Source: Chondrosia reniformis (Eukaryota; Porifera; Demospongiae; Chondrillida; Chondrillidae). From it: a stretch of DNA of 64,000 bases. The notes below the pieces were generated by a model, which saw nothing but the letters and a program-made list of their open reading frames with translations, searched no databases and was not told the DNA's origin. Shown one piece after another: positions 8,301-64,000 of the stretch; position 1 is the first letter of the stretch, and each line of letters opens with the position of its first letter. The translations under genes and the position numbers were made by a program. The DNA is taken from the NCBI GenBank assembly GCA_947172415.1, contig OX359195.1, positions 3,819,501 to 3,883,500 of the forward strand, in the 5' to 3' direction.

Positions 8301-9825
8301 TTATTACATACCACTAGTACACACAACTAGTACATACAATATATACTTATACATATACTTACAGGATATACAATTAGTACATGCAACTATTATACAATTA
8401 GTACATGCAACTATTGCAACTATTAGTACAATTAGTACATGCAACTATTACATTCGACTAGTGCATATAAGTAGTACCTACAAATATTTAATATAACTAG
8501 TACTTGTACATTCAACTAATACCTACTTATTATCTAGTATTACTAGTACTATTGCCTACAACTAGTACACATAACTAGTACATACACCTAGTACATACAA
8601 CTAGCACATACTACTAGTACATACTACTAGTACATACAAGTAGTACATTCACTTAGGACTTACAAGTAGTAAATACAACTAGGACATACAACTAGTACAC
8701 ACAACAAGTACATACACCTAGTATATAACTAGTCCATACAAGTGGTACATACAACTAGTACCTACAACTAGTAAATATTACCAGTACTAGTACAAACAAC
8801 AAGTTATTAGAACAAGTACCTGCAACTAGTACATAACTAATCCATACAGTTATTACATACCACTAGTACACAGTATAACTAATACATACAGTTATTACAT
8901 ACCACTACTAGTACATACTATGTAAATGTAAGTATACAAGTGGTACATACAACTAGTACCTACAACTAGTAAATATTACCAGTACTAGTACAAACAACAA
9001 GTTATTAGAACAAGTACCTGCAACTAGTACATAACTAATACATACAGTTATTACATACCACTAGTACACACAACTAGTAGATACAATTAGTACATACAAG
9101 TAATACCTGCAACTAGTATATAACTATTACATACAACTAGTACATAAAACTAGTTCATTAAGTTAGAACATACAACTACTACATACAACTCATACATCAA
9201 ATATTTAATATAACTAGTACTTGTACATTCAACTAATACCTACCTATTATCTAGTAATACTAGTACTATTGCCTACAACTAGTACACATAACTAGTATAT
9301 ACACCTAGTACATACAACTAGTACATACTACTAGTACATACTACTAGTACATACTACTAGTACATACTACTAGTACATACAAGTAGTACATTCACTTAGG
9401 ACTTACAGGATATACAATTAGTACATGCAACTATTATACAATTAGTACATGCAACTATTGCAACTATTAGTACAATTAGTACATGCAACTATTACATTCG
9501 ACTAGTACATATAAGTAGTACCTACAAATATTTAATATAACTAGTACTTGTACATTCAACTAATACCTACTTATTATCTAGTATTACTAGTACTATTGCC
9601 TACAACTAGTACACATAACTAGTACATGCACCTAGTACATACAACTAGTACACACTACTAGTACACACTACTAGTACATACAAGTAGTACATTCACTTAG
9701 GACTTACAAGTAGTAAATACAACTAGGACATACAACTAGTACACACAACAAGTACATACACCTAGTATATAACTAGTCCATACAAGTGGTACATACAACT
9801 AGTACCTACAACTAGTAAATAACTT
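5338..9825 (+). repeat. Satellite B array, forward orientation
   Basis: Degenerate tandem repeat built on the 13-bp motif ACTAGTACATACA, with variants such as CCTAGTACATACA and ACTAGTAAATATA. The core contains the palindromes ACTAGT and TACTAGTA. Longer blocks of several hundred bases recur, for example the stretch around TACTTGTACATTCAACTAAT, found near 6395, 6920, 7220, 7720, 8025, 8495, 9215 and 9545. That indicates higher-order amplification. No open reading frame of note and no RNA gene is visible. Confidence 0.93.
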
Positions 9826-12800: not shown

Positions 12801-15430
12801 AGTTGTATGTACTAGTAGTATGTACTAGTTGTATATACTAGGTGTATGTACTAGTTATTTGTACTAGTTGTAGGCAATAGTACTAGTACTACTAGATAAT
12901 AAGTAGGTATTAGTTGAATGTACAAGTACTAGTTATATTAAATATTTGTAGGTACTACTTATATGTACTAGTCGAATGTAATAGTTGCATGTACTAATTG
13001 TATATAATAGTTGTATGTACCATTTGTATGTACTAGTTATGTACTAGGTGTATGTAATAGTAGTATGTTCTAGTAGGATTAACTAGTGGAATGTACTAGT
13101 ACTTGTAATATATACTAACTGTAGGCACTAGTTGTGTGTACTAGTTGAATGTAATAGTTGTATGAACTAGTTGTATGTAGTAGTACAAGTTATATTTACT
13201 ACTTGTAGGTATTAGTTGTATGTCCTAGTGTATGTAGTAGTTGTATGTTTAATTGTATGAACTAGTTTTATGTACTAGTTGTATGTTCTAGTTATATACT
13301 AATGTATGTACTAGTTGTATATATGTACTAGTTGTACGTACTAGCACTGGTTATATTTACTATTTTGTAGGTATTAGTTGTATGTACTAGTTGTATGTAG
13401 TAGTTGTATGGTCTAATTGTATGAACTAGTTTTATGTACTAGTTGTATGTACTAGTTATATACTAGTTGTATGTACTAGTTGTGTGTACTAGTTGTATGT
13501 ACTAATAGTTTGTACTAGTTAATTACTAGTTATATGTATAGTTTTATGTACTATTTCTGTGTACTAGTTGTAGGTACTACTTGTATATACTACTCGTATG
13601 TATTAGTTGTATATACTAGTATATGTACTACTTGTAGATTTTACTACTAGTTATACTAGGTACTAGGTAGGTGCTAGTTGTATCTACTAGCACTAGTTAT
13701 GTTTACAAGTTGTACGTACTAGGTGCATGTACTTGTTGAATGTTATAGTTGCATGCACTAATTGTATGTACTAGTTGTATGTACTAGTTGTGTGTAATTG
13801 TTGTATGTACTAGTTCTATGTAGAAGTACTAGCTATATTAACTTGTTGTAGGTACTAGTTTTATGTACCAGTTGTAATACTAGTTGTATGTTCTAGTTTT
13901 ATGCACTATATAGTTGTATCTACTAGTTGTATTTACTAATTGTATGTAGTAGTTTTATGTACTACTTGTAAGAAATAGTTGTATGTATATATTAGTTGTA
14001 GGTACTAATTGTATATCGTAGTTGTATGTACTAGTTTTATGTACTAGTAATAGTTATATTTACTATTTGTAAGTATATACTAGTTGTACGTACTCAATTG
14101 TTTGATGCACTAATTGCTTGGACTAGTTTTATGTACTAGTTGTGTGTAATTGTTGTATGTACTAGTCCTATGCACTGGTTGTATGTAAAAGTACTAGTTA
14201 TATTAACTAGTTGTAGGTACTAGTTATATGTACTAGTTGAATGTAATAGTTTCCTGTACTAATTGTATATAATAGTTGTATGTACCAGTTGTATGCACTA
14301 GTTATGCAGTAGTTGTGTGTACTAGTTGTATGTACTAGTAGGAATAACTAGAGGTATGTACTAGTACCAGTAATATTTACTAACTGTAGGCACTAGTTGT
14401 ATGTACTAGTTGTACATACTAGCACTGGTTATATTTACTAGTTGTAGGTACTAGTTGTATGATATAGTTGAATGTAATAGTTGTATGAACTAGTTCATAG
14501 TTGATGTATGAGTTGTATGTAGTAGTTGTATGTTCTAACTTAATGAACTAGTTTTATGTACTAGTTGTATGTACTAGTTATATACTAGTTGCAGGTATTA
14601 CTTGTATGTACTAATTGTATGTACTAGTTGTGTGTACTAGTGGTATGTAATAACTGTATGTATTAGTTATGTACTAGTTGCAGGTACTTGTTCTAATAAC
14701 TTGTTGTTTGTACTAGTACTGGTAATATTTACTAGTTGTAGGTACTAGTTTTATGCACTAGTTGTATGTACTAGTACATGGTATATTTACTAATTATAGG
14801 TATTAGTTTTATGTAGTATTTCTGTGTACTAGTTGTATGTACTAGTTTCATGTACTTCTTGTATGTACTAGTTTTATGGACTAATTGTATGTACTAATTG
14901 TATGTACTATTTATAGGTGCCAGTTTTATGTGTATGTACTAGTTATATGTAGTAGTTGGGTACTAGTTATAGGTACTAGTTGTAAGTTCTAGTACTAGTA
15001 AAACTAGGTACTAAGTAGGTACTAGTTATATGTACTAATTGCTTATACTAGTTGTATGTGCTAGTTGCGTACCAGTTGTATGTACAAGTTGTATGTGCTA
15101 GTTGGATGAACTAATTGTATGTACTAGTACAAGTTATATTTAATAGTTATATATACTAGTTGTATGCACTAGTACCAGTTATATATATTAGTTATATTTA
15201 CTAGTTATATTTACTAGTTGTTTGTACTGGTTGTTTGTACTAGTTGTATGCACTAGTTGTATGTAACAGTTATATGTGCTAGAAACTAGTTGTATGTAAC
15301 AGTTATATGTGCTAGAAACTAGTTGTATGTAACAGTTATATGTGCTAGAAACTAGTTGTATGTATTAGTTGTATTTACTAGTTGTATGTACTAGTTTTAT
15401 GTGCTATACTAGTTATATTTACTAGTTGTT
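9826..15430 (-). repeat. Satellite B array, reverse orientation
   Basis: From about 9826 the satellite B motif is read as TGTATGTACTAGT, the reverse complement of the preceding block. Large blocks repeat at roughly 9866-10890, 11225-12410 and 12745-13970, starting at a shared TAAGTGAATGTACTACTTG-like sequence. They are reverse complements of parts of 5365-6440 and 20270-21480. A 33-bp segment is triplicated at 15258-15356. No gene is visible. Confidence 0.92.
15258..15356. repeat. 33-bp triplication in satellite B
   Basis: Three consecutive near-identical 33-bp copies beginning TGTATGTAACAGTTATATGT. The mirrored arm at 18860-18905 has only one copy, so this is a local expansion after the palindrome formed, or a contraction on the other arm. 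Confidence 0.85.
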
Positions 15431-18799: not shown

Positions 18800-21636
18800 A
18801 ACAACTAGTAAATATAACTAGTATAGCACATAAAACTAGTACATACAACTAGTAAATACAACTAATACATACAACTAGTTTCTAGCACATATAACTGTTA
18901 CATACAACTAGTACATATAACTAGTACAAATAACTACTATACCTAATACATAAAAAGTACATATATCTAATACATACAACTAGTGCATACAACTAGTACA
19001 AACAACCAGTACAAACAACTAGTAAATATAACTAGTAAATATAACTAATATATATAACTGGTACTAGTGCATACAACTAGTATATATAACTATTAAATAT
19101 AACTTGTACTAGTACATACAATTAGTTCATCCAACTAGCACATACAACTTGTACATACAACTGGTACGCAACTAGCACATACAACTAGTATAAGCAATTA
19201 GTACATATAACTAGTACCTACTTAGTACCTAGTTTTACTAGTACTAGAACTTACAACTAGTACCTATAACTAGTACCCAACTACTACATATAACTAGTAC
19301 ATACACATAAAACTGGACCTATAAATAGTACATACAATTAGTACATACAATTAGTCCATAAAACTAGTACATACAAGTAGTACATGAAACTAGTACATAC
19401 AACTAGTACACAGAAATACTACATAAAACTAATACCTATAATTAGTAAATATACCATGTACTAGTACATACAACTAGTGCATAAAACTAGTACCTACAAC
19501 TAGTAAATATTACCAGTACTAGTACAAACAACAAGTTATTAGAACAAGTACCTGCAACTAGTACATAACTAATACATACAGTTATTACATACCACTAGTA
19601 CACACAACTAGTACATACAATTAGTACATACAAGTAATACCTGCAACTAGTATATAACTAGTACATACAACTAGTACATAAAACTAGTTCATTAAGTTAG
19701 AACATACAACTACTACATACAACTCATACATCAACTATGAACTAGTTCATACAACTATTACATTCAACTATATCATACAACTAGTACCTACAACTAGTAA
19801 ATATAACCAGTGCTAGTATGTACAACTAGTACATACAACTAGTGCCTACAGTTAGTAAATATTACTGGTACTAGTACATACCTCTAGTTATTCCTACTAG
19901 TACATACAACTAGTACACACAATTACTGCATAACTAGTGCATACAACTGGTACATACAACTATTATATACAATTAGTACAGGAAACTATTACATTCAACT
20001 AGTACATATAACTAGTACCTACAACTAGTTAATATAACTAGTACTTTTACATACAACCAGTGCATAGGACTAGTACATACAACAATTACACACAACTAGT
20101 ACATAACACTAGTCCACGCAATTAGTGCATACAACTACTACAAACAATTGAGTACGTACAACTAGTATATACTTACAACTAGTAAATATAACTAGTACTA
20201 GTACATACAACTAGGATATACAATTAGTACCTACAACTAATATATACATACAACTATTTCTTACAAGTAGTACATAAAACTACTACATACAATTAGTAAA
20301 TACAACTAGTAGATACAACTATATAGTGCATAAAACTAGAACATACAACTAGTATTACAACTGGTACATAAAACTAGTACCTACAACAAGTTAATATAGC
20401 TAGTACTTCTACATAGAACTAGTACATACAACAATTACACACAACTAGTACATACAACTAGTACATACAATTAGTGCATGCAACTATAACATTCAACAAG
20501 TACATGCACCTAGTACGTACAACTTGTAAACATAACCAGTGCTAGTAGATACAACTAGCACCTACCTAGTACCTAGTATAACTAGTAGTAAAATCTACAA
20601 GTAGTACATATACTAGTATATACAACTAATACATACGAGTAGTATATACAAGTAGTACCAACAACTAGTACACAGAAATAGTACATAAAACTATACATAT
20701 AACTAGTAATTAACTAGTACAAACTATTAGTACATACAACTAGTACACACAACTAGTACATACAACTATTATATAACTAGTACATACAACTAGTACATAA
20801 AACTAGTTCATACAATTAGACCATACAACTACTACATACAACTAGTACATACAACTAATACCTACAAAATAGTAAATATAACCAGTGCTAGTACGTACAA
20901 CTAGTACATATATACAACTAGTACATACATTAGTATATAACTAGAACATACAACTAGTACATAAAACTAGTTCATACAATTAAACATACAACTACTACAT
21001 ACACTAGGACATACAACTAATACCTACAAGTAGTAAATATAACTTGTACTACTACATACAACTAGTTCATACAACTATTACATTCAACTAGTACACACAA
21101 CTAGTGCCTACAGTTAGTATATATTACAAGTACTAGTACATTCCACTAGTTAATCCTACTAGAACATACTACTATTACATACACCTAGTACATAACTAGT
21201 ACATACAAATGGTACATACAACTATTATATACAATTAGTACATGCAACTATTACATTCGACTAGTACATATAAGTAGTACCTACAAATATTTAATATAAC
21301 TAGTACTTGTACATTCAACTAATACCTACTTAATATCTAGTAGTACTAGTACTATTGCCTACAACTAGTACACATAACTAGTACATACACCTAGTACATA
21401 CAACTAGTACATACTACTAGTACACACTACTAGTACATACAAGTAGTACATTCACTTAGGACTTACAAGTAGTAAATACAACTAGGACATACAACTAGTA
21501 CACACAACAAGTACATACACCTAGTATATAACTAGTCCATACAAGTGGTACATACAACTAGTACCTACAACTAGTAAATATTACCAGTACTAGTACAAAC
21601 AACAAGTTATTAGAACAAGTACCTGCAACTAGTACA
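18800..21636 (+). repeat. Satellite B array, forward orientation
   Basis: ACTAGTACATACA-type repeats mirroring 12590-15430. Diagnostic variants match the left arm in reverse, for example CATAAAACTAGTTCATTAAG near 19680 against 14550. No gene is visible. Confidence 0.92.
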
Positions 21637-22345
21637 TAGTTTTATGTACTAGTTGTATGTTCTAGTTATATACTAATGTATGTACTAGTTGTATATATGT
21701 ACTAGTTGTACGTACTAGCACTGGTTATATTTACTATTTTGTAGGTATTAGTTGTATGTACTAGTTGTATGTAGTAGTTGTATGGTCTAATTGTATGAAC
21801 TAGTTTTATGTACTAGTTGTATGTACTAGTTATATAATAGTTGTATGTACTAGTTGTGTGTACTAGTTGTATGTACTAATAGTTTGTACTAATTAATTAC
21901 TAGTTATATGTATAGTTTTATGTACTATTTCTGTGTACTAGTTGTAGGTACTACTTGTATATACTACTCGTATGTATTAGTTGTATATACTAGTATATGT
22001 ACTACTTGTAGATTTTACTACTAGTTATACTAGGTACTAGGTAGGTGCTAGTTGTATCTACTAGCACTAGTTATGTTTACAAGTTGTACGTACTAGGTGC
22101 ATGTACTTGTTGAATGTTATAGTTGCATGCACTAATTGTATGTACTAGTTGTATGTACTAGTTGTGTGTAATTGTTGTATGTACTAGTTCTATGTAGAAG
22201 TACTAGCTATATTAACTTGTTGTAGGTACTAGTTTTATGTACCAGTTGTAATACTAGTTGTATGTTCTAGTTTTATGCACTATATAGTTGTATCTACTAG
22301 TTGTATTTACTAATTGTATGTAGCAGTTTTATGTACTACATATTC
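21637..22345 (-). repeat. Satellite B block, reverse orientation
   Basis: At about 21637 the repeat switches abruptly to the TGTATGTACTAGT orientation. The block matches 13265-13965 as a direct copy and ends with TTTTATGTACTACATATTCC, which mirrors the A/B junction at 5338-5400. It therefore links satellite B to the inverted satellite A block just as the left edge of the region does. Confidence 0.85.
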
Positions 22346-24320
22346 CCATATTTTACTACGTAAAATATGGGATATGAAGCCGTCCCGAAGACAGTCTCTA
22401 GGATAAAAATGGCCGCCGAATCTGAATAAAGTGTCCCCGAAGGTCTACGACGTATCCCTGAGTTAAAAATGGCCGTTGATTTCGAAAATATGGGCTATGA
22501 AGCCGTACCGAAGACAGTTTCTAGGATAAAAATGGCCGATGAATCCGAAGAACGGATCCCCGAAGGTCTTCGACCTATCACCGAGTTAAAAACGGCCGCC
22601 GATTTCCAAAATATGGGCTATGATGTCGTCCCGAAGTCCGTTTCTAGGATGAAAATGGCCTCTGAATCCGATTAAAGGGTCCCCGTTGCTGTACGACCTA
22701 TCCCGAGTTAAAAATGGCAGTCGATTTCGAAAATATGGACTATGAGGCCGCACCGAAGATAGTTTCTAGGATAAAAATGGCCGCCGAATCCGATTAAAGA
22801 GTCCCCGAAGCTCAACGACCTATCCCTGAGGTAAAAATGGCCGTCGATTTTGAAAATATGGGCTATGATGTCGTCCCGAAGTCCGTTTCTAGGATGAAAA
22901 TGTCCGCCTAATCCGATTAAAGGGTCCCAGAAGCTCTACGACCTATCCCGAGTTAAGAATGGCCGACGATTTCGAAAATATGGGCTATGAAGCCGTACCG
23001 ACGACTGTTTCCAGGATAGAAATTGCCGCCAATTTTGAAAATATGGGCTATGAAGCCGTACCGAAGACCGTATCTAGGTTAAAATTGGCCGCAGAATCCG
23101 AATAATGGGTCCCCGAAGCTCTACGACCTATCACCGAGTCAAAAATGGCCACCGATTTTGAAAATATGGGCTATGAAGCTGTACCGAAGACAGTTTCTAG
23201 GATAAAAATGGCCGACGAATCCGAAGAACTGATCCCCGAAGGTCTTCGACCTATTGCCGAGTTAAAAATGGCCGCCAATTTCGAAAATATGGGCTATGAA
23301 ACCGTAATGAAGGTCGTTTCTAGGATAAAAATGGCCGCCGAATTTGATTTAAGGGTCCCCGAAGCTCTACGACCTATCCCTGAGTTAAAAATGGCCCTCG
23401 ATTTCAAAAATATGGGCTATGAAGTTGTAACAAAGACCGTTTCTAGGATAAAAATGGCCGCCTAAACCGATTAAAGGGTTCCCCGAAGCTCTACGACTTA
23501 TCCCGAGTTAAAAATGGCCGCCGATTTTGAAAATATGGGCTTTGAAGCCGTACCGAAGATAGTTTCTAGGATAAAAATTGCCGCCGAATCCGATTAAAGG
23601 GTCCCCGAAGCTCTACGACCTATCCCCGAGTTAAAAATGGCCGCCGATTTCGAAAATATGGGCTATGAAGCCGTACCGAAGACAGTTTCTAGGATAAAAA
23701 TGGCCGCCGAATCTGAATAAAGGGTCCCCAAAGGTCTACGGCCTATCCTTGAGATAAAAATGGTCGCCGATTTCGAAAATATGGGCTGTGAAGGATTACC
23801 GAAGACCTTTCTGGGATAAGAATGGCCGCCGAATCCGATTATAGGGTCCCCGAAACTCTACGACCTATCTCCGAGTTAAAAATGGCCGCTGATTTCGAAA
23901 ATATGGTCTACGAAGTTGTAACAAAGACCGTTTCTAGGATAAAAATGGCCGCCGAATCCAATTAAAGGGTCACCGAAGCTCTACGACCTATCCCCGAGTT
24001 AAAAATGGCCGTCGATTTCGAAAATATGGGCTATGAAACGGTTACGAAGAACATTTCTAAGATAAAATGGCCGCCAAATCAGAATTAAGGATCCCCAACG
24101 CTCTACGACCTATCACCGAGATAAAAATGGCCGCCGATTTCGAAAATATGGGCTATGAAGCCGTTCCGAAGACAGTTTCTAGGATAAAAATGGCCGCCGA
24201 ATCCGATTAAGGTGTCCCCGAAGCTCCACGACCTATCACCGAGATAAAAATATCCACCAATTTCGCGAATATGGGATATGAAGCCGTCCCGAAGACAGTC
24301 TCTAGGATAAAAATGACCCT
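22346..24320 (+). repeat. Satellite A array, plus orientation
   Basis: About sixteen units of the 123-bp satellite, inverted relative to 1-5337. Successive units start with ATGGCC, for example at 23145 and 23268, exactly 123 bp apart. Open stretches of 68 and 106 codons occur where the usual TAA of the second half is replaced by GAAGAA or similar. They have no independent start or end signals and are best read as satellite rather than as genes. The block ends at about 24320, followed by AT-rich satellite C. Confidence 0.92.
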
Positions 24321-49500: not shown

Positions 49501-51096
49501 CTTCGTTCCTTGTATCCAGACGATGTCATCCGTAACACCATCGGTCACGTGTGTCACCCAATATATGTTGTAAATGAAGTCCTATTTATGTAGATACCAC
49601 TCACTTTTGACTCTACATATATATGCAATATTTAAGATATATAATATGCATATAAGATATATACAATATTTATTACATATAAGATATATAATACATATAT
49701 AAGATGTATGCTTTTTTCTTTTTTCAGGACCCAACCTGGTTTTGAACCAGGGTCTACGAGTACCTTGTATCCAGACGATGTCATCCGTAACACCATCGGT
49801 CACGTGGGTTCCACAATATATGTTGTAAATGAAGTCCTATTTATATACCACTCACTTTTGACTCTACATATATATGGAATATATAAGATAAAAAATATGC
49901 ATATAAGATATATACAATATATATTACATATAAGATATATAATACATATATAAGATGTATGCTTTTTACCTTTTTTCTGCACCCTACCTGGTATTGTACC
50001 AGGGCATCCTGGTACCTTGTATCCACACGATGTCATCCGTAACTCCAACGGTCACGTGGGTTCCACAATATATGTTGTAAATAAAGTCCTATTTATATAC
50101 CACTCACTTTTGGCTCTACATATATATGAAATATATAAGATATATAATATGCATATAAGATATATACAATATGTACTACATAAAAGATATATAATACATA
50201 TATAAGATGTATGCTTTTTTCTTTTTTCAGGACCCAACCTGGTTTTGAACCAGGGTATCCTCGCACCTTGTATCCAGACGATGTCATTCGTAACACCATC
50301 GGTCACGTGGGTTCCACAATATATGTTTTAACTTCTTTCAGGACCCAAACTGTTTTGAACCAGGGTATCCTCGTACCTTGTATCCAGACGATGTCATCCG
50401 TAACACCATCGGTCACGTGTGACACCCAATATATGTTGTAAATGAAGTCCTCTTTATATATATACCACTCACTTTTGACTCTACATATATATGCAATATT
50501 TAAGATATATAATATGCATATATATGAGATATATACAATATTTATTACATATAAGATATATAATACATATATAAGATGTGTGCTTTTCTTTCTTTTTCAG
50601 GACCCACCTGGTATTGAACCAGGGCATCCTCGTACCTTGTATCCAGACGATGTCATCCGTAACACCATCGGTCACGTGGATTCCACAATATATGTTGTGA
50701 ATGAAGTCCTATTTATACACCATTCTCTTTTGACTCTACATATATATGCAATATAGAAGATATATAATATGCATATAAGATATATACAATATATATTCCA
50801 TATAAGATATATACAATATATATTACATATAAGATATAAAATACATCTACAAATTGTATGCTTTTTTTTCTTTTTTCAGGACCCAACCTGGTATTGAACC
50901 AGGGCATCCCAGTACCTTGTATCCAGACGATGTCATCCGCAACACCATCGGTCACGTGGGTTCCACAATATATGTTGTAAATGAAATCCTATTTATATAC
51001 CACTCACTTTTAACTCTACATATATATGAAATATCTAAGATATATAATATGCATATAAGATATCTACAATATGTATTACATAAAAGATATATAAGA

Positions 51097-51859
51097 TAAA
51101 GCAGTCACAGCTGTTCATTTAGTAGAGCTCTTTAATTACCTTATTGACAACATTTATGTATGTGTAGACGGTTCTGTATTTAAGCAATGTGTAGGTATCC
51201 CTATGGGTACTGACTGTGCCCCTGTAGTTGCTAATCTTTTTCTGTTTGCCTATGAGTATGAGTTTATGAAAGGACTACTTAAGGATAACATCACCCTAGC
51301 TATTAAATTTTCCAATACTTATAGGTATATTGATGACCTTTTATGTATTAACAACAAGGATTTTGAACTGTCAATTAGTGATATTTACCCCAAAGAACTT
51401 ATTCTTAAAAAGACAAATACCAGCCCTAAAAAATCCCCCTTTTTAGACTTAGATATAACCATTACTAACAATCAATTTATCACTAAAGTATATGATAAGC
51501 GAGAGGACTTTAACTTTGATATAGTAAATTTCCCCCATTTAGATAGTAATATTCCTAATACCCCAGCCTATGGTGTCTTTATTTCACAACTAATTAGGTA
51601 TTCTAGAATATGTAGTGACTTCTCCAGTTTTCAGGCTAAAAGTTTGCAGTTATGCAGTAGGCTTATTAAGCAGGGTTACAAATACTTTAAGCTAAAATCA
51701 ACCTTTAAAACCTTCCTATCCCGGCAGCCTCTAGTTAGAATCAAGTATAAGCAAAAAGTAGCTAGTATGCTTAAGGACTGTCTTGTGTTACCCCATATTG
51801 TGTTACCCCACCTCCAAAGAAATGTTACTACTAGAAGACCTAAGGGTAGACTTACGTAA
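51097..51859 (+). pseudogene. C-terminal fragment of permuted PLE polymerase
   Basis: The open frame corresponds to residues about 721-973 of the full protein at 52439-55360 and appears identical to it. It lacks the GIY-YIG domain and the first half of the reverse transcriptase, including the FDFSTLYT motif with the first catalytic aspartate. It retains GIPMGTDCAPVVANL and YRYIDDLL. The first internal methionine is at 51203 (within the GIPMG motif), giving at most a 218-residue product. It cannot be a working polymerase. It exists because the leading copy of the tandem is 5'-truncated. Confidence 0.88.
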
Positions 51860-52035
51860 TATGTCCTACTTGTGTCTATAGTTATGCTGAGTCTGTTTTA
51901 CCTGTACAAGCAAGATTACTAATAGATTTATAATTAATTCATAAAAGTTAATTGGACCTACATTCCTTTCATAAAATTAAATTTCATCATGTGTCTTAGT
52001 TAACACCTTATTTAACTTTTGGCGCCAAAATAGTG

Positions 52036-52044
52036 TATATAAGG
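52036..52044 (+). promoter_or_regulatory. Candidate TATA box of upstream pseudo-LTR
   Basis: TATATAAGG lies about 75 bp upstream of the hammerhead-like motif and 400 bp upstream of the full ORF. If used, transcription would start near 52065 in the truncated copy and read through the complete unit. The same sequence recurs at 55537-55545. Confidence 0.5.
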
Positions 52045-52114
52045 CCCCTAGATTTAGCATAGTGAGCCAAGGATTCACAGAAGATCAAGATAAAGAAAAA
52101 GACAAAGACTCCCA

Positions 52115-52160
52115 GGATCACTGATGAAGGGTGGAATTCCCAGAAACGGCTGTCTGACCC
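52115..52160 (+). ncRNA. Hammerhead-ribozyme-like motif, copy 1
   Basis: Core strings are in order. CTGATGA (52121-52127) is followed by stem II, with GGG 52129-52131 pairing CCC 52139-52141 and a 7-nt loop. GAA (52143-52145) comes next. Stem III has two pairs: A52146 with T52153 and C52147 with G52152, loop GGCT. Cleavage would follow C52154 in the GTC triplet. Stem I pairs GGATCA (52115-52120) with TGACCC (52155-52160), with one A-C mismatch. The very short stem III is typical of hammerheads in PLEs. Odd points are the A-A opposition (52128/52142) where G-C usually closes stem II, and the stem I mismatch, so activity may be weak or lost. Confidence 0.6.
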
Positions 52161-52438
52161 AGTGGAGAAGAAGATGAAAGAAGGGAAAAGAAGGAAGAAA
52201 AGACTACTGTATCTTCATCTAAAGCTCTCTTTAGGTTTAGTTCCCCTATAGGCTCTTTTTACAGAATAGGCATATAGCATGTAGGAAAATGGTATCTTAG
52301 ATTTTTCATGTGTTTACTTAGCCTCATGTTAGTCCTTGGTGGCTGTTGAGCCATTGTTGCCTTTAAATAGTCCCGGCTACATGTAATAGGTTAAGTCTTT
52401 GTGGACTAGCTTGTCTAGTCCTTGACCCATTTCCAATC

Positions 52439-55360
52439 ATGACAAGTACAAAGTATAGAGATAGGATACCGGCTGGGAGGTCGCCCGGGTTAACAAGCTC
52501 CCCGTCATTAGGTAAAGGTAGGGTGCCTGGTGATGAAAAGTTAGCTAACTCTCCCCCATCTGTAGGTAGAGGGGTGCCTACTGGTGGGCAAGCTAGCCCC
52601 TCACTAGTTAAGAAGTGTAGTAATAAGCGGTGTAAAACATGTCCCTCTTTAGTTACTGGCCCTACTTTTAAGAGTTCAGTTACTGGCAGGACCTATCAAG
52701 TCCGTAGCCCTTGTGGTCCCCTAGGATGCCAGAGTAGGAATGTTGTGTATCTTATTACTTGTAAACAATGTGATGTACAGTATGTAGGAGAAACCTCTCA
52801 GATGCTTAGGAGTAGAATGAACAACCATAGGACTAGTACCAAAGGTTTTAAGCCACTGTATCTTTACAATCACTTTAATTCTGATAACCATAGTTTTGAT
52901 GATGCCTTGATTATGCCCATAGAACAGATACCTGAGACACCTAATTCTACTAGCCTCAGACTACTGAGAGAAGCGTTCTGGTACAAGGAACTCTGCTCTA
53001 TTTACCCATATGGACTTAACGATAACATTAAAGGCGTTGGCAATATTTCGAAACTTAAAAAAGAAATCATCGTATGGAACCTTTTTAATCGCTTATCTCA
53101 TAAAAGACGGCATCGGCGCTCCAATCTAAAATCGACAGGCAGTAGTAATAACGCTGCCTACGACCCTAAATGGCTCAAAGAACGACTACCACTTTACAAG
53201 AACGTTGGCTTTCTAGCCAAACTTAAACGCGATACTTTTGCATTACCAGCTCGACACCTTCATCGTTTGTTAAACTCGGTACAATGTCTCATCGATACCC
53301 CAGAAACACCTTTTCCGCTTAGACTTATGCTAATGATTAAAGACGTTATTAAAGCACGCGCTTCAGCCAGCCTTCCCAAACACCCAACGAAAACGACAAG
53401 TCCAGAAGGGTTTCTTAAAATCGTGTTTCGTAATAAAGGTGTAGAAAAAATAGGCCTCTCAGGTATCTTAAACCAAAAGTTAGTGTTAGAAACTGTCCCA
53501 CCCTTTATACAAAACAAAGAGCCCCCATGTGTAGTATATAAGTATACCCAACCAATAGGACCTCAAATCTTTAACTTTTCACAAGCCTCCAAGTCAGATG
53601 TTTTTAGAAAACCAGAACCATGTGAGTGTCACAAGTCCCCCTTCATTTACAAGCCCCTAGGCCATGTTTTAACAGGTGATCTACGTATTGTTAGTAACCC
53701 AAAACTTAGAAAACTTCTTAAGAAAGGACCAAAATTTAGAGAACCTAATAACTTTAATTGGGTAACTGCTTTAAAAATGTGTAAGGAAGGTCTTAGAAAA
53801 TATAAGATTACCTGGGCCCGTAGAGAAAATGTATCTACTTCTGTATTTAGTGAGTGGGAAAATGCTGTACTTAAGAAAATTAATGATAGGATCTCTAAGC
53901 TGTCTAAATCGTATACCAAATCCTCAGTAGCCAAGAAGACCCTTACTTGCCCTAAAATTAAGAAATTCTTAGCAGACCTACATGATAAGTATGTTATAGC
54001 CCCTGCCGATAAGGCCTCTAATAATATAATTTTTATATGTAAGTCCTACTATAGACAAATTATTAATGAAGAACTAGGCAGTACCTCCACTTATGCTAAA
54101 TGTGCAGTAGAACCCCAACAGTTAATTAGGAAACACATAGATTTCTTAAAACTAGAGAACTTAGAACCTAAACCAGACTGGTGTAACCTTCCCTCTTTTT
54201 ACTGGATGCCTAAGCTACATAAGAACCCTTACAGCTACAGATTCATAGCCGCCTCTCACAAATGTACTACCAAACCCCTTTCTAGATTTCTAAATTCGGC
54301 GCTCAGACTAATTCTCAAACATTTTAGAGAATACTGCCTAGGTATATATAGGAATACTGGTGTTAATGCCTTTTGGATTGTAGAAAACTCACTAGAAGTC
54401 TTAGATAGTCTTAGGTCTATACCCACTAGAAAAGCCCAGCTAGCTAGTTTTGATTTTTCTACATTATATACAGCGATCCCCCATAATCTACTAAAAGATA
54501 AGATTACTAACCTAATTCATAGTGCCTATACCTGTAGAAAGTCCCAATATATAGAAGTCTGTCAGGATAAAGCCTTTTGGTCTAACAATGTCTCCAATAA
54601 AGCAGTCACAGCTGTTCATTTAGTAGAGCTCTTTAATTACCTTATTGACAACATTTATGTATGTGTAGACGGTTCTGTATTTAAGCAATGTGTAGGTATC
54701 CCTATGGGTACTGACTGTGCCCCTGTAGTTGCTAATCTTTTTCTGTTTGCCTATGAGTATGAGTTTATGAAAGGACTACTTAAGGATAACATCACCCTAG
54801 CTATTAAATTTTCCAATACTTATAGGTATATTGATGACCTTTTATGTATTAACAACAAGGATTTTGAACTGTCAATTAGTGATATTTACCCCAAAGAACT
54901 TATTCTTAAAAAGACAAATACCAGCCCTAAAAAATCCCCCTTTTTAGACTTAGATATAACCATTACTAACAATCAATTTATCACTAAAGTATATGATAAG
55001 CGAGAGGACTTTAACTTTGATATAGTAAATTTCCCCCATTTAGATAGTAATATTCCTAATACCCCAGCCTATGGTGTCTTTATTTCACAACTAATTAGGT
55101 ATTCTAGAATATGTAGTGACTTCTCCAGTTTTCAGGCTAAAAGTTTGCAGTTATGCAGTAGGCTTATTAAGCAGGGTTACAAATACTTTAAGCTAAAATC
55201 AACCTTTAAAACCTTCCTATCCCGGCAGCCTCTAGTTAGAATCAAGTATAAGCAAAAAGTAGCTAGTATGCTTAAGGACTGTCTTGTGTTACCCCATATT
55301 GTGTTACCCCACCTCCAAAGAAATGTTACTACTAGAAGACCTAAGGGTAGACTTACGTAA
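52439..55360 (+). CDS. PLE polyprotein: N-terminal GIY-YIG endonuclease plus reverse transcriptase (973 aa)
   Basis: Predicted single-protein retrotransposition enzyme that nicks target DNA and copies its RNA. A basic, proline/serine-rich N-terminus is followed by a cysteine cluster (C60, C65, C68, C92, C97, C108, C111), probably a zinc-binding motif. The GIY-YIG domain shows NVVYLITC (101-108), YVGETSQMLRSRMNNHR (115-131), and E178 in LLREAFWYKEL with GLN at 192-194. A linker contains CECHKSPF (395-402) and GHVLTGDLRIV (408-418). Reverse transcriptase motifs follow: APADKASNNI (521-530), FYWMPKLHKNP (587-597), FDFSTLYTAIP (671-681, catalytic D672), GIPMGTDCAPVVANLF (753-768), YRYIDDLL (795-802, catalytic D799 and D800) and SPFLDLDI (833-840). 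The frame is unbroken, so the element may be active. The start is the first ATG of the long frame. Confidence 0.93.
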   Translation: MTSTKYRDRIPAGRSPGLTSSPSLGKGRVPGDEKLANSPPSVGRGVPTGGQASPSLVKKCSNKRCKTCPSLVTGPTFKSSVTGRTYQVRSPCGPLGCQSRNVVYLITCKQCDVQYVGETSQMLRSRMNNHRTSTKGFKPLYLYNHFNSDNHSFDDALIMPIEQIPETPNSTSLRLLREAFWYKELCSIYPYGLNDNIKGVGNISKLKKEIIVWNLFNRLSHKRRHRRSNLKSTGSSNNAAYDPKWLKERLPLYKNVGFLAKLKRDTFALPARHLHRLLNSVQCLIDTPETPFPLRLMLMIKDVIKARASASLPKHPTKTTSPEGFLKIVFRNKGVEKIGLSGILNQKLVLETVPPFIQNKEPPCVVYKYTQPIGPQIFNFSQASKSDVFRKPEPCECHKSPFIYKPLGHVLTGDLRIVSNPKLRKLLKKGPKFREPNNFNWVTALKMCKEGLRKYKITWARRENVSTSVFSEWENAVLKKINDRISKLSKSYTKSSVAKKTLTCPKIKKFLADLHDKYVIAPADKASNNIIFICKSYYRQIINEELGSTSTYAKCAVEPQQLIRKHIDFLKLENLEPKPDWCNLPSFYWMPKLHKNPYSYRFIAASHKCTTKPLSRFLNSALRLILKHFREYCLGIYRNTGVNAFWIVENSLEVLDSLRSIPTRKAQLASFDFSTLYTAIPHNLLKDKITNLIHSAYTCRKSQYIEVCQDKAFWSNNVSNKAVTAVHLVELFNYLIDNIYVCVDGSVFKQCVGIPMGTDCAPVVANLFLFAYEYEFMKGLLKDNITLAIKFSNTYRYIDDLLCINNKDFELSISDIYPKELILKKTNTSPKKSPFLDLDITITNNQFITKVYDKREDFNFDIVNFPHLDSNIPNTPAYGVFISQLIRYSRICSDFSSFQAKSLQLCSRLIKQGYKYFKLKSTFKTFLSRQPLVRIKYKQKVASMLKDCLVLPHIVLPHLQRNVTTRRPKGRLT

Positions 55361-55536
55361 TATGTCCTACTTGTGTCTATAGTTATGCTGAGTCTGTTTT
55401 ACCTGTACAAGCAAGATTACTAATAGATTTATAATTAATTCATAAAAGTTAATTGGACCTACATTCCTTTCATAAAATTAAATTTCATCATGTGTCTTAG
55501 TTAACACCTTATTTAACTTTTGGCGCCAAAATAGTG

Positions 55537-55545
55537 TATATAAGG
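55537..55545 (+). promoter_or_regulatory. Candidate TATA box, downstream pseudo-LTR
   Basis: Second copy of TATATAAGG, 3501 bp downstream of the first. Here it could drive transcription into the flanking satellite. Confidence 0.4.
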
Positions 55546-55615
55546 CCCCTAGATTTAGCATAGTGAGCCAAGGATTCACAGAAGATCAAGATAAAGAAAA
55601 AGACAAAGACTCCCA

Positions 55616-55661
55616 GGATCACTGATGAAGGGTGGAATTCCCAGAAACGGCTGTCTGACCC
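55616..55661 (+). ncRNA. Hammerhead-ribozyme-like motif, copy 2
   Basis: Same sequence as 52115-52160 at an offset of 3501 bp. With two copies bracketing the full unit, self-cleavage at both (after 52154 and 55655) would release a monomer-length 3501-nt RNA. Confidence 0.6.
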
Positions 55662-55810
55662 AGTGGAGAAGAAGATGAAAGAAGGGAAAAGAAGGAAGAA
55701 AAGACTACTGTATCTTCATCTAAAGCTCTCTTTAGGTTTAGTTCCCCTATAGGCTCTTTTTACAGAATAGGCATATAGCATGTAGGAAAATGGTATCTTA
55801 GATTTTTCAT

Positions 55811-56549
55811 ATAATACATATATAAGATGTATGCCTTTTTTCTTTTTTCAGGACCCAACCTAGTATTCTGCCAGGGTATCCTCGTACCTTGTATCCAGAC
55901 GATGTCATCCGTAACACCTTCGGTCACGTGGGTCACCCAATATATGTTGTAAATGAAGCCCTATTTATATAACACTCACTTTTGACTCTACATATATATG
56001 CAATATATAAGATATAATATATGCATATAAGATATATACAATATATATTACATATAAGATATATAATACATATTTAAGATGTATGCTTTTTTCTTTTTTC
56101 AGGACTCAATCTGGTTTTGAACCAGGGCTTCCTCGTACCTTGTATCCAGATGATGTCATCCGTAACACCATCGGGCACGTGGGTTCCTCAATATATGTTG
56201 TAAATTAAGTCCTATTTATATACCACTCACTTTTGACTCTACATATATATATGCAATATTTAAGATATATTATATGCATATAAGATATATACAATTTATA
56301 TTACATATAAGATATATAGTACATATATAAGATGTATGCTTTTTTCATTTTTTCAGGACTCAACCTGGTATTGAACCAGGGCATCCTTGTACCTTGTATC
56401 CAGACGATGTCATCCGTAACACCATCAGTCACGTGGGTTCCACAATATATGTTGTAAATGAAGTCCTATCTATATACTACTCACTTTTGACTCTTCATAT
56501 ATACATGCAATATTTAAGATATATAATATACATATAAGATATATACAAT
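55811..56549 (-). repeat. Satellite C, last units
   Basis: About three satellite C monomers follow the PLE insertion and share the tRNA-like segment (for example 56092-56190). The array ends at the foldback element beginning at 56550. Confidence 0.9.
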
Positions 56550-56949
56550 ATGAGTAGTATAGTCTCTACAGATCATATAAAGTTAAACGCATGGCCTTCC
56601 AATTACCTTTTCACACCTTAGTATAGACTGAAGATGATGCATCTGCATGCCATTATCAGCAAAAATTGCAGTCTCATGCAAGGGGTCTCAGCCAATAATC
56701 ACCGTAGATTTGACTTACCTTGAGTGTGTTGTTTATGTGAATGCATGCAAGCAACCGACGGCACTCCTAGCTCAAACTCAAGGCAAGTCAAATCTGCGGT
56801 GATTATTGGCTGAGACCCCTTGCATGAGACTGCAATTTTTGCTGATAATGGCATGCGGATGCATCATCTTTAGTCTATACTAAGTTGTGAAAAGGTAATT
56901 GGAAGGCCATGTGTTTAACTTTATATGATCTGTAGAGACTATACTACTC
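56550..56949. mobile_element. Foldback element of 400 bp
   Basis: Inverted repeat with arms 56550-56728 and 56772-56949 and a ~43-nt apex. It starts GAGTAGTATAGTCTCTACAG and ends with the complement CTGTAGAGACTATACTACTC. Arms differ at a few positions. No coding capacity. The sequence is unrelated by eye to the X1/X2 hairpins. Likely a foldback-type non-autonomous transposon; it lies exactly at the end of satellite C. Confidence 0.7.
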
Positions 56950-57060: not shown

Positions 57061-57158
57061 ACTATATATGTATATATATATATACAAGACTATGAACAGG
57101 AAGCCATACGTTAACATAATTTCTGAAAACAATATAGGGACGCCTGCGGCGCCCCAAC
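57061..57158 (-). mobile_element. Fragment of the GGGGCGCC-bounded element
   Basis: About 98 bp matching 18712-18799: a TA microsatellite, then ACAAGACTATGAACAGGAAG, ending in a degraded end hairpin (GGGACGCCTGCGGCGCCCC). It covers only one end of the element and passes straight into satellite B, as the other copies do. Confidence 0.7.
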
Positions 57159-60100
57159 TACTACATACAACTACTACATACAACTAGACCATACAACTAG
57201 TAAATAGAATGAGTACATACAGCTAGTACAAAAAACTAGTACATAGAACTAGTACAAACAACTAGTACATACAACTAGGACCTACCTATTACATAGTTCA
57301 ACTAGTACTAGAACCTACAATTAGTACATACAACTAGTACATACAACTAGTACATACAACTACATACACCTAGTACATACAACTAGTACATACACGTAGT
57401 CCATACAACTAGTGCATACAACTAGTGCATACAATTATTACTACAATTAGTACTTAGAACTAGTTCATAGAAGGGTACATAAAACTAGTACATACAGCTA
57501 GTATATATTAGATATACATAGCCATTACATGCAATTTGTTCATAAAACTTGTAAATATAACTGGTACACATCTAGTACATATACCTAGTACATACAACTA
57601 GTACATTCAATTAGTACATTTGCATAGAACATACACATACAACTAGAACATATACATTGTACATATAACTAGTACATTAAACTAGAACATATAACTAGCA
57701 CAAACAACTAGTACATAACTAGTACATACAACGAGTACATACAACAAATACACACAATTAGTACATACAAATATTACATTCAGCTAGTAAATACAACTAG
57801 TACCTACAACTAGTACGTACAACTATTACCTTCAACTAGTAAATAAAACCAGTACTAGTACATACAACTAGTACATACAACTAGTCCACAAAACTAGTCC
57901 ATAAAACTAGAACATACAACTAGTACACACAACTAGTACAAACAACTAGTACATACAACTAGTATATAAAAATATTACATACAACTAGTTCATACAAGAA
58001 GTACATAACTAGTATATATAACTAGTATATGTACCTAGTACATACACCTAGTATATATAACTAGTACATATAACTAGTATGTATAAATAGTACTAACAAC
58101 TAGTACATACTACTATTTCTTACAACTAGTAAATATAACTAGTACCAGTACATAAAACTAGTACATACAACTGGTACATACAACTTATACATACAACTAG
58201 GCCATACAACTAGTTACTAGTACACACAACTAGGATATAAAACTAGTATATACAACTAGTACATTCAGCTAGTTTATAGAACTATTACTTACAATAAGTT
58301 CATAAAACTAGGTACTAGTACATACAACTACTTCACACAACTAGTACATACAACTATTACATAAAACTAGTGCTACAACTAGTATATCCTACTAGTATAT
58401 TCAAATGGTACATATTTTTATTACATACACATATAACTATATAGTACTTACAAATTGTACATCAACTTGTATCTAGTACATGCAACTAGGATCTACCTAG
58501 TACCTAGTATAACTACAACTAGAACCCACAACTAGTATATACAACTAGTACATATAACTAGTACATACACATATAACTAGTATATATAAACAGTATATAA
58601 ACGTAGTACATACAACTAGTTCCTAGAAGGTGAACATAAAACTACCACATAAAACTAGTATATACAACTAGTACAGAGTTAGTAGATACGAGTTATATAT
58701 ACATACAACTAGTACATAAAATTGGTACATAACTAGTACATACAACTATTACATACAACTAGTACATGCAATTCGTACATACAACTACCAAATGCAACTA
58801 CTACATACAACTTGTACCTACAATTATTAATACTAGTCTATACAACCAATACATAGAACTAGTACATACACCTAGTACATAAAATTAGTACATTCAACTA
58901 GTACACACAAGTTCTACATATAGCTAGTACATATAACTAGAAACTAGTACATGCAACTAGTACATAAAAAGAGTACATAAAACTCATACATACAACTAGT
59001 ACGAACAACAAGACATTAGTACATACATCTACTTCATAGAACGTGAACATAAAACTACCACCTAAAACTAGTATAAAGAACTAGTGCACAGCTAGTACCT
59101 CCAAGTTATATATACATGCAACTAGTACATACAATTGGTACATAACTAGTACATGTAACTGCTACATACAACTTGTCCCTCCAACTATTAAATATAACTA
59201 ATACTAGTCCATACATCTAGTACATTAAACTAGTACTTAAACCTAGTATATAAAATTAGTACATACAACTAGTACACACAACTACTACAGATAACTAGTA
59301 CATACAATTAGTACATAGAACTAGTACATACCTCTAGTACATAGAACAAATACATAAAAGTAGTACATACAACTGGTGCATACAACTGGTACATAACTAG
59401 TACATATATACAACTAGTACATACAACTAGTACATATATTTATTACATACACATGTAACTAGAACATACAAAATGCACATCAACTTGTATATAGTACATG
59501 CATCTAGGATCTACCTAGTACCTTGTATAACTAGAACTAGAACCTACAACAAGTATATATAACTAGCACATATAACTAGTACACACACATATAACTAGTA
59601 TATATAAATAGTACATACACCTATACATACAACTAGGACATACAAGTAATATACACAACTAGTACACACAACCAGTGCAAACAACTAGTAAATACAACTA
59701 GCAACTAGTACATGCAATTAGTACATAGAAAGAGTACATAAAACTCATACATACAACTAGTAGGAACAACAAGAGACTAGTACATACACCTAGTTTATAG
59801 AACGTCATCATAAAAGTACCAAATAAAACTAGTATATACAACTAGTACGCAGCTAGTACAGACAAGTAATATATACATACAACTAGTACATACAACTAGT
59901 ACATATAACTATTACATTAAACTATTACATACAACCATTACATACAACTTGTACCTACAACTAGTAAATATAACTTGTAATAGTACATATATACAACTAG
60001 TAAAATCAACTAGTACATACAATTAGTATAATGAACTAGTACATACAACTAGAACCTATTTAGTATCTACTACAACTAGTACTAGAACCTACAACTAGTA

Positions 60101-63100
60101 CTTACAACAAGTATCGAGTGCATACAACTAGTACAAACAACTAGTACATACACCTAGTCCTTACAACTAGTACATACAACTAGTACCTACTTAGTACCTA
60201 GTATAACTAATACTAGAACGTACAACTAGTACAAACAGCTTGTACTTACAACCAGCACACAGGTAACTAGTACGTATAAATAGTGTATGCAACTAGAACA
60301 TAAACTAGAACATACAACTAGTACATTGAACTAGTACATACAATTAGAACCCACGTAGTACCTAGTACAATGAGTACTAGAACCTACAACTAGTACTTAT
60401 AACTAGTACATATAAACAGTCCATACACCTAGTACATGCAACTAGTACATACAAGTAGAACCTACAACTCTTTAATTTTACAAGTAATATTACCTCCAAC
60501 TAGTTCATACAACTAGTTCATACAACTAGTCAATAAAGGTGCATAAAACTGGTTAATATAACTAGCATAAACAACTACCGCATATTTGGTACTTACAACT
60601 AGTACATACAACTAGTACATACAATCAGTACAAACAACTATTACATAAACTTGTACATACAACTTGTGCCTACAACTGGTAAATAAACCTAGTATATACT
60701 AGTACATACAACTAGTCCATACACCAAGTAAAAATAACTAGTTCATATAACTAGTAAATATAACCAGAACATAAAACTAGTACATTCAGCTAGTCCATAA
60801 AACTAGTTCATACAACTAGCACGTACATTTAGGTTCTTCAACGTGAAAATGTAACTAGTCCTAGTACATACAACAAGTAAATTACATACAATCAGTTATT
60901 ACAAGTAGTACATTCAAATAGTACATACAACTAGTACATACAAGTAGTATATAACTATTAGATATATATAACTAGTATATATACCTAGTATATATGACTA
61001 CTTTACACAACTAGTACATTCAACCTGTATGTACATGCAACTAGTCCTTACAACTAGTATATACAACTAGTAACGAGTACATACAAGTAGTCCCTAATAC
61101 CAGTACATACAACTATTACATACAATTAGTACATATAATTAGTACCTACAACTAGTTATATTTACTAGTTGTTTGTACTAGTTATTTAGAAGTTGTATGT
61201 ATGTACTAGCTGTATGTACTAGTCCATATAACTAGTACATACAACTAGTACATACAACTATTATATAAAACTAGTACATACGAGTAGTGCATGCAACTAG
61301 TACACACAACTAATACTTACAACTATTACTTACAACAAGTACATACAGTAGGTACATACAACTACTTCTGAGTACATACATGTAGTACATACAATTGGTA
61401 CCAACAACTAGTAACGAGTACATAAAACTATTACATACAACTAATACATACAACTACTACCTACAACTGGAACATAAATCTAGTACTTACAACTAGTACA
61501 TACATATAGTACCTACAAATATTAAATATACCTGGTACCAGTACATACAACTGGTACATACAACTAGTACCTATGACTAGTAAGTAAAACTAGCACTAGT
61601 ACATACAACTAGAACATACAATTGGCACATACAGCTAGTAACTAGTACATATAACTAGTAAATACATCTAGTATATAAAACTAGTACATACAACTATTAA
61701 TTACAAGTAATACATACAACTAATAACTAAACCTAGGAAATATAACTAGTAGTAGTACATACAACTAGTATACACAACTAATACCTGCGACTAGTAATTA
61801 TAACAAGTATTAGTACATACAACAAATACATAAAACAAGTACACACAACTAGAAGATAGAACTAGTACATACAACTAGTACATTCACCTAGTACATACAA
61901 CTAGTCCATTTACTAGTACATATACTTAATACATACAACAAGTACATATAACTAGAAAATATATCTATTATATACAACTAGTAACTAGTACATACAACTG
62001 GTACATAAAACTTGAACCAATTATAACTAGTATAAGCACATACAACTAGTACATACAACAAGTAGATACAACTAGTTTGTACAATCAGTAACTACATAAA
62101 ACTAGAACCTACAACAAGGAAATGTAACTAGTACCTACAACTAGCAAACATAACTAGTACTAGTATATAAATCTACTACACACAACTAGTACATACAACT
62201 ACTGCATGCAACTAGTACATACAAGTAGTACATATAACTAATACATACAACTAGTGTATACAATTAGCACCTGCAACTAGTAGATACAACTAGTACACAT
62301 AACTTAAAACTATAGCTAGTACTAGTGCATACAAATAGTACAAACAACTAGGATATACATACAACAAATACATACAACCAGTACATTCAACTAGTAACCA
62401 GTACATACAACTAATATATATGATTAGTGCGTAAACTAGTAAATATAACTTGTTCTAGTACATACAACTAGGGCATAAAACTAGTACATGCAAATAGAAA
62501 GGAGAAGTTACAAATAGTACATACAATTTACACATAGAACTAGTACATAGAATGAGTACATAAAACTAGTATGTACAACAAGTACCTACAACTAGTTCAT
62601 ATAACTAGTTCATACAACTAGTACATACAAGCAGAAACTTGTGCATACAACTAGTACATACAACTAATACATAAAACTAGTACATAGAACTAGTACGTAC
62701 AACTAGTACATTAAACTAGTACATATAACTAGTGCATGCAACCAGTACACACAACTAGTACATACAACTAATACATACAACTAGTACATACAGTTACTAC
62801 ACACAACTAGTTATGAGTACAGAAATGTAGTACATACAATTAGTACAAACAACAATTTACGAGTACATAAAAACTAATAAATACAACAAATACATACAAC
62901 TACTATATACAACTAGAACATAAATCTAGTACATACAACTAGTACATACATATAGTACCTACAAATACTAAATATACCTTGTACCAGTACATACAAATAC
63001 TACAAACAACCAGTATCTATGACTAGTAAATAAACCTAGTATTAGTCCATACAACTAAAACGTACAACTGTCACATTCAGCTAGTAATGTGTACATATAA

Positions 63101-64000
63101 CTAGTAAATACATCTAGTATTTACAACTAGTACATACAACTATTAATTACAAGTAATACATACACCTACTACATAAAACTAGTACATACACATATAACTA
63201 GTACATATAAATAGTACTTACAACTACTAAATACAACTAGTACATACAAGTGGTACATAACTAGTACATACAACTAGTACATATAATTAGTACATACAAA
63301 TAGTACAAACAGATAGTACATACAACTTGTAATTACCTAGTACCCACTATAACTACTACTATAAAGAAGCTATAACTATTACATACAGCCAGAACATATA
63401 TACAACTAGTGCATACAAGTAGTACTTACAACTCGTACATATAACTAATGCATACAACTAGTACATACACATAGTAAGTACATGTAGTATGTACAACTAC
63501 TACACAAAACTAGTACATAAAACTAGTACACACAACTAGTACATACAAATAGTACATACAACTTGTGTCTAGTACATGCAACTAGGACCTACCTAGTACC
63601 TAGTATAACTAGGACTAGAACCTACAACCAGTACATACAACTAGTACATATAACTAGAACATACAGCTAGTATATACACCTAGTACACACAACTACTACA
63701 TATAACTAGTACATACACATATACCTAGTACATGTAAATAGTACATACAACTAGTACATACAACTACTACACAAAACTAGTACATATAACCAGTACACAC
63801 AATTACTACATTAAACTAGAACCTACAAGTGGTACATAAAACTAGTACATACAACTAGAAGCTACTTAGTACGTAGTACAACTGGTACTAGAACCTACAA
63901 CTAGTATCTACACCTAGTCATACAACTAGTATCGAGTACATACAACTAGTACAAACAACTAGTACATACAAAGACTCCATACAACTAGTACCTACTTAGT
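57159..64000 (+). repeat. Satellite B array, forward orientation, right edge
   Basis: Degenerate ACTAGTACATACA repeats to the end of the window, more diverged and less block-duplicated than the arrays at 5-22 kb. A short reversed patch (TATATTTACTAGTTGTTTGT and neighbours) lies near 61146-61224. No gene, RNA gene or transposon is seen in these 6.8 kb. Confidence 0.92.
61146..61224 (-). repeat. Small inverted patch in satellite B
   Basis: About 80 bp where the motif reads TGTATGTACTAGCTGTATG inside an otherwise forward array, a micro-inversion or a strand-switch relic. Confidence 0.6.

Follow-up and report, generated by a model that had tools for sequence, protein, structure and literature searches.

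Background

Penelope-like elements (PLEs) of the Naiad/Chlamys type carry an N-terminal GIY-YIG endonuclease and a PLE-type reverse transcriptase (RT), lack a C-terminal endonuclease and possess a pseudo-LTR (pLTR) derived from a 5′-truncated tandem copy. Such permuted PLEs were reportedly described by Craig et al. in 2021.

For the canonical Poseidon element PAc of Anolis, tandem units with pLTRs and a hammerhead motif in the locus are described in the available part of the source, in which reverse transcription from an internal RNA site and AT-rich targets were measured (PMC11167929). PAc is introduced there as the first PLE with activity in vitro (PMC11167929). To judge from a limited literature search, permuted PLEs thus still seem to await biochemical study. 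The pLTR structure of PLEs is described in the accessible portion of a further source, with which the element analyzed here agrees (PMC8969392).

The window, i.e., the whole analyzed stretch of 64,000 nucleotides, is located at 0.455 of contig C7 in a host assembly of 117.4 Mb and 15 contigs. The host is probably a sponge: its mitochondrial COX1 is read best with genetic code 4, AGR codons standing for Arg and many ATA codons for Ile at the positions where COX1 of known structure has these residues, and 4 tRNAs were found in the first 10 kb. An assignment to Ciona was dropped on these grounds. It very likely contains a recent insertion of a permuted-domain PLE with the GIY-YIG domain N-terminal and the RT C-terminal. 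The features are listed in Table 1.

Table 1. Features of the element and its insertion site (positions in the window).
Feature	Coordinates	Strand	Basis and remarks
Probable TSD ATATAA, left copy	51089..51094	.	Flank comparison; an unexplained G follows at 51095
Upstream pseudo-LTR, 5′-truncated tandem copy (unit positions 2288-3501)	51096..52309	+	0 mismatches to 54597-55810
TATATAAG, possible promoter box in the pLTR	52036..52043	+	Read from the sequence; putative function
Hammerhead-like motif, upstream copy	52109..52167	+	Descriptor match; predicted cut between 52154 and 52155
Full unit, 3501 nt	52310..55810	+	Unit junctions and common 3′ end in the family (see text)
Open frame, 973 codons and stop	52439..55360	+	First ATG at 52439
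GIY-YIG endonuclease region, aa 84-219 of the 997-residue reading	52616..53023	+	Pfam match at aa 126-159 and comparison with L050, L065 and L070
PLE-type reverse transcriptase region, aa 502-965, YIDD at 821	53870..55261	+	Weak RT profiles and protein comparison
Downstream 1214-nt repeat, end of the full unit	54597..55810	+	Repeat comparison
Hammerhead-like motif, downstream copy	55610..55668	+	Descriptor match; predicted cut between 55655 and 55656
Probable TSD ATATAA, right copy	55809..55814	.	Flank comparison; first two bases could belong to the element

Structure of the Element

The original prediction, made from the letters of this stretch, had named two apparently identical 1214-bp copies and an open frame of 973 codons. 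Pairwise re-alignment of the two direct repeats revealed no mismatch over 1214 nt, and the coordinates given were correct. The repeats are spaced by 3501 nt and their identity ends abruptly at both edges. Read from stop to stop, the frame covers 997 codons (52367-55360) and lies wholly inside one unit, with about its last 250 codons repeated in the upstream copy (frame 51095-51859). The possible promoter box has a second copy in the downstream repeat (55537-55544). Directly 5′ of the box in the pLTR, a 12-nt palindrome, TTTGGCGCCAAA, was observed at 52018-52029, which judging by its sequence is perhaps a promoter element.

Family Copies and Unit Boundaries

A search of the host assembly with the window protein resulted in at least 49 matches at no fewer than 46 places, three copies being split; this copy number is a lower bound, as 46 of 1450 candidates were scored. 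At least eight copies, including that of the window, read from residue 1 to 997 without a stop. At the DNA level 30 loci were compared (the window's included), and their main pieces share 97.3-100% identity with the window unit; the closest other copies are L001 and L003, both with 99.97%. Many of the 30 loci contain stops or are truncated at the 5′ end. Because near-identical copies carry open frames, recent mobility is supported by the sequences, and the family appears to be recent. The near-identical copies, which the original prediction had left to be counted, together with the open frames and the mismatch-free repeats, uphold its claim of a recently inserted, apparently intact element.

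The 3′ end falls at unit position 3499-3501 in all 30 loci. Eighteen of them consist of several pieces, and 17 of these 18 show a junction of position 3501 to position 1, the exception being a rearranged locus (L027). The 5′ starts are scattered over positions 2116-3464 in the multi-piece loci and over 21-708 in the 12 single-piece loci, where it has to be considered that L025 is truncated by the end of the locus and that the first bases of L001 look like satellite. In L007, a stretch of 32 nt (3347-3378) is duplicated in each of the two copies. The element shows the variable 5′ truncation and fixed 3′ end of the pseudo-LTR that are a feature of PLEs, and reverse transcription beginning at a fixed internal site would be expected to leave a common 3′ end with scattered 5′ ends. 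Directly after the terminal ...TTTTTC, ATA or ATG is found in 27 of the 30 loci (background trinucleotide frequency 0.06). Since the unit continues with CATGTG, this AT, in some copies ATG, may be copied from the RNA.

A spread of the near-identical copies by segmental duplication or gene conversion instead of retrotransposition was also considered. It would fit the copies of the window and L001, which are separated by 424 kb on the same contig and encode identical proteins, as well as the crowding at positions 0.30-0.60 of the contigs, where 38 of 46 permuted and 43 of 48 canonical PLE places are located among the matches listed (split matches counted once, by hand). It is nevertheless highly improbable, because the flanks of the 30 loci differ by eye (the left flank of L025 is missing) and the 5′ starts differ at a common 3′ end, as separate reverse-transcription events would give.

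Domain Order and Relatives

In the Pfam search of the window protein (E up to 1), PF01541 (GIY-YIG) at aa 126-159 was the only match (E 2.2e-4), with 21.9 bits narrowly missing the cut-off of 22.6; RT, integrase and gag were not found. The RT matches in NCBIfam and PHROGs were weak, those in NCBIfam lying far under the curated cut-offs. By blastp, aa 84-219 matched the C-terminus (823-951, E 2.9e-19) and aa 502-965 the middle (273-706, E 3.8e-18) of the protein of the canonical PLE L070, in which Pfam places an RT at 405-585 and then a GIY-YIG domain at 860-942, both above cut-off. As the two blocks match in swapped order, the permutation can be seen directly. The predicted location of GIY-YIG N-terminal to the RT was confirmed by these blocks, the PF01541 match and the position of YIDD, and no GIY-YIG pattern was found C-terminal to the RT of the window protein.

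Over about 900 residues, the window protein is collinear with L050 (30% identity, E 1e-124) and L065 (28% identity, E 1e-95; blastp). For L050, Pfam detected GIY-YIG at 154-234 (PF01541, 28.2 bits, above cut-off) and an RT at 711-861 (below cut-off); for L065, it found neither GIY-YIG nor RT. Among the residues invariant in the three permuted proteins are the endonuclease residues Y128, Y139, G141, R148, H154, E202 and N218 and the RT residues D696, Y821, D823 and D824, which we take to be catalytic. The same holds for C84, C89, C92, C121, C132 and C135, presumably the cysteine-rich, zinc-finger-like motif of permuted PLEs that precedes GIY-YIG; since canonical L070 has similar cysteines, they are not diagnostic. 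AlphaFold2 on the three-sequence alignment gave an unusable model (mean pLDDT 32.4), and a sequence search against solved structures gave three matches, all at chance level.

Relatives were searched with the motif pattern Y..PKxHK.....R.I, which resulted in 8 viral and 37 genome-contig stretches, whose frames were read. Six stretches were kept (L050, L053, L054, L065, L070 and L075) and 39 were dropped, among them L048, which is PLE-like at the contig start and then continues with unlike sequence. No matches were obtained with a second motif pattern, and no relative was confirmed by searching the window protein against viral and genome contigs or an alignment against viral contigs. The PLE-like frames of the six stretches were observed inside records whose titles name bacterial genomes or MAGs and are probably eukaryotic contamination.

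The RT of the window was compared by blastp with eight other PLE-like RTs, assumed to be PLEs on the basis of their motifs and in five of eight cases also of a linked GIY-YIG. Three matched at E 3e-31 or better, including the 210-aa piece L053, and five at 4e-12 to 2e-18. In the RT tree, which has eight rows, is unrooted and without outgroup, includes L075 as a flagged long branch and leaves out L053, the three permuted proteins (window, L050 and L065) were split from four canonical ones with a support of 100/99, a split that was present in 100% of 200 bootstrap trees. Shuffled labels gave a value as low in 32 of 500 cases, which is weak at such a small size. A placement of the RT with canonical PLEs, which would speak against the permuted type, was not found; it groups with the two permuted PLEs (three against four rows, unrooted).

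The window element has the PLE RT in common with the canonical elements L097 and L105, two rows of the tree that come from the window's own genome, and with L070 and L054, at an identity of 22-24%. L097, L105 and L070 possess a GIY-YIG domain too, but after the RT, unlike the window element; L054, classed among the canonical PLEs, runs off the contig end with the endonuclease out of view. The L070 protein has 51 matches in the host genome. For 7 of 12 loci examined, GIY-YIG lies C-terminal to the RT, as read directly in L097, L100, L101 and L105 and by pattern in L104, L106 and L107. The canonical matches often form close opposite-strand pairs, minus then plus (seven by eye among the 51, e.g., C4:4108277- / 4111362+ and C2:5956390- / 5958457+).

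PLE units are arranged in tandem, so that an incorrectly placed cut could permute the domains, and canonical PLEs are common in the host genome. A canonical PLE whose order merely seems permuted, through misjoined tandem units or a frame across a unit junction, is nonetheless scarcely credible here, as the frame lies within a single unit, no GIY-YIG pattern follows the RT, and L050 and L065 from other records share the same order and group with the window by their RT. The RT frame between direct repeats could also recall an LTR retrotransposon with true LTRs, which can be dismissed because the start of the upstream repeat, coding sequence included, varies among the 18 loci with several pieces, the other 12 of the 30 consist of a single piece and Pfam gave GIY-YIG and neither integrase nor gag.

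Target Sites

Outside of the permuted PLE, the window consists mostly of tandem repeats, with 123-bp units at 4-5341 and 22362-24315, 13-bp units in both orientations at 5365-15406, 18803-22338 and 57155-63995, and 252-bp units in much of 24448-50696 and at 55809-56551. This repeat-rich, mid-contig region is perhaps located near a centromere. An inverted repeat (56552-56949) that borders the 252-bp satellite has 177-nt arms that are 96% complementary and 44 nt apart, perhaps a small DNA transposon.

Joined with ATATAA taken once, the flanks of the window copy agree with a neighboring satellite monomer in 135 of 144 positions, and the single gap of the alignment lies away from the join; the copy was probably inserted into a satellite monomer with a 6-bp target site duplication (TSD). 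A direct repeat of at least 3 nt was found at the insertion in 23 of the 30 loci, 21 of these repeats having 3-7 nt and two, in periodic satellite, being longer. By this rule, under which several repeats have 3 nt only, seven loci showed no TSD; a looser rule gave other repeat lengths. The base before the putative TSD is C in 15, T in 7 and A in 1 of the 23 cases (background ATR sites: C in 466 of 2474). The excess of C is in part due to the sequence of the 13-bp satellite itself; in the loci outside of it, C was counted by hand in 6 of 10, two of them with doubtful repeats.

Fifteen insertions into the 13-bp satellite were scored, with a right flank fitting the satellite at 17 of 26 positions or more. 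Twelve of them are at one phase and on one strand, GTAC^ATACAACT, and 14 are on that strand. Because the monomer holds one AT per strand, the preferred phase is in part a consequence of the AT, and the strand bias is the stronger signal. Over all 30 loci, the right flank matches the 13-bp satellite in 15, which are not the same 15 as the phase-scored loci, and either side in 17. As background, 47 of 980 random 40-mers matched it (in 3 of 20 sampled loci), and 487 of 1600 from the window itself. In view of this window background and of the canonical PLEs, which crowd the same mid-contig zones, we do not claim that satellites in general are preferred. Insertions of the family are often found in repeat DNA, with one position favored.

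Hammerhead-Like Motif

Both pLTR sites contain the string CTGATGA...GAAAC...GTC with possible stems. A descriptor of CUGANGA, stem II, GAAA, a short stem III, UH and stem I, allowing an A.A mismatch adjoining stem II, was found in the window at these two sites only. Written after the string was seen, it occurred in 1 of 3000 first-order simulated units on the plus strand. The Rfam hammerhead models gave no match at the gathering threshold in the whole window or at E up to 10 in 51800-52500, and the hammerhead fold has -6.2 kcal/mol vs. -14.4 kcal/mol for the best fold, which is without hammerhead. Among the 30 loci, the core string is exact 35 times vs. 46 covering pieces. Within the sequence examined of six other PLE-like loci, the full descriptor was found in none, and the core CTGANGA...GAAA is present in L053, L070 and L075 and absent in L050, L054 and L065. 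Hammerhead motifs, usually minimal, are attributed to all available PLEs in the part of the source at hand (PMC6155905). A hammerhead in the pLTR is plausible on the sequence evidence.

Proposed Mechanism and Comparison with Known Systems

In the proposed mechanism, the pLTR would drive an RNA longer than one unit, which may be trimmed by means of the hammerhead-like motif of each pLTR. The element protein would nick AC^ATR sites, and the freed ...AT(G)-3′ end would prime by pairing at the internal ...UUUUUCAU site of the RNA. The cDNA would run back through the full unit into the preceding unit and stop at a variable point, giving rise to the 5′-truncated upstream tandem copy. Target-primed reverse transcription with an internal start is consistent with the AT-rich targets, with the scattered 5′ ends and with a 3′ end that is constant although the RNA must extend beyond it. 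It is possible, if still rather doubtful, that this permuted PLE combines a minimal pLTR hammerhead with pairing of the cut ...ATG-3′ end to the internal UUUUUCAU of its RNA, which would lead to landing at one phase and on one strand of the 13-bp mid-chromosome satellite (GTAC^ATACA), RT start and target being matched by microhomology, unlike in PAc.

It is well supported that the window element represents a known but little-studied kind of retroelement and belongs to a young multi-copy family. In a limited literature search, no description of this PLE family was recognized, which is no evidence of absence. With its several uninterrupted frames, defined unit, fixed cDNA start and readable target preference, the young family is a useful subject, and a genome with permuted and canonical PLEs is suited to asking whether the relocation of the endonuclease alters priming and landing.

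All listed features of the Naiad/Chlamys type are in common with the window element, and nothing was shown to differ; the window family is observed to insert into the 13-bp satellite with a bias of phase and strand. With PAc, as characterized in the available part of its description, the element shares tandem pLTR units, a probable internal RT start, AT-rich targets and possibly a hammerhead motif, but GIY-YIG is C-terminal in PAc and N-terminal here (PMC11167929). Set against the same portion of that source, the window family has CAT in common to many targets and the unit end (PMC11167929), which suggests, at the level of sequence, priming by microhomology.
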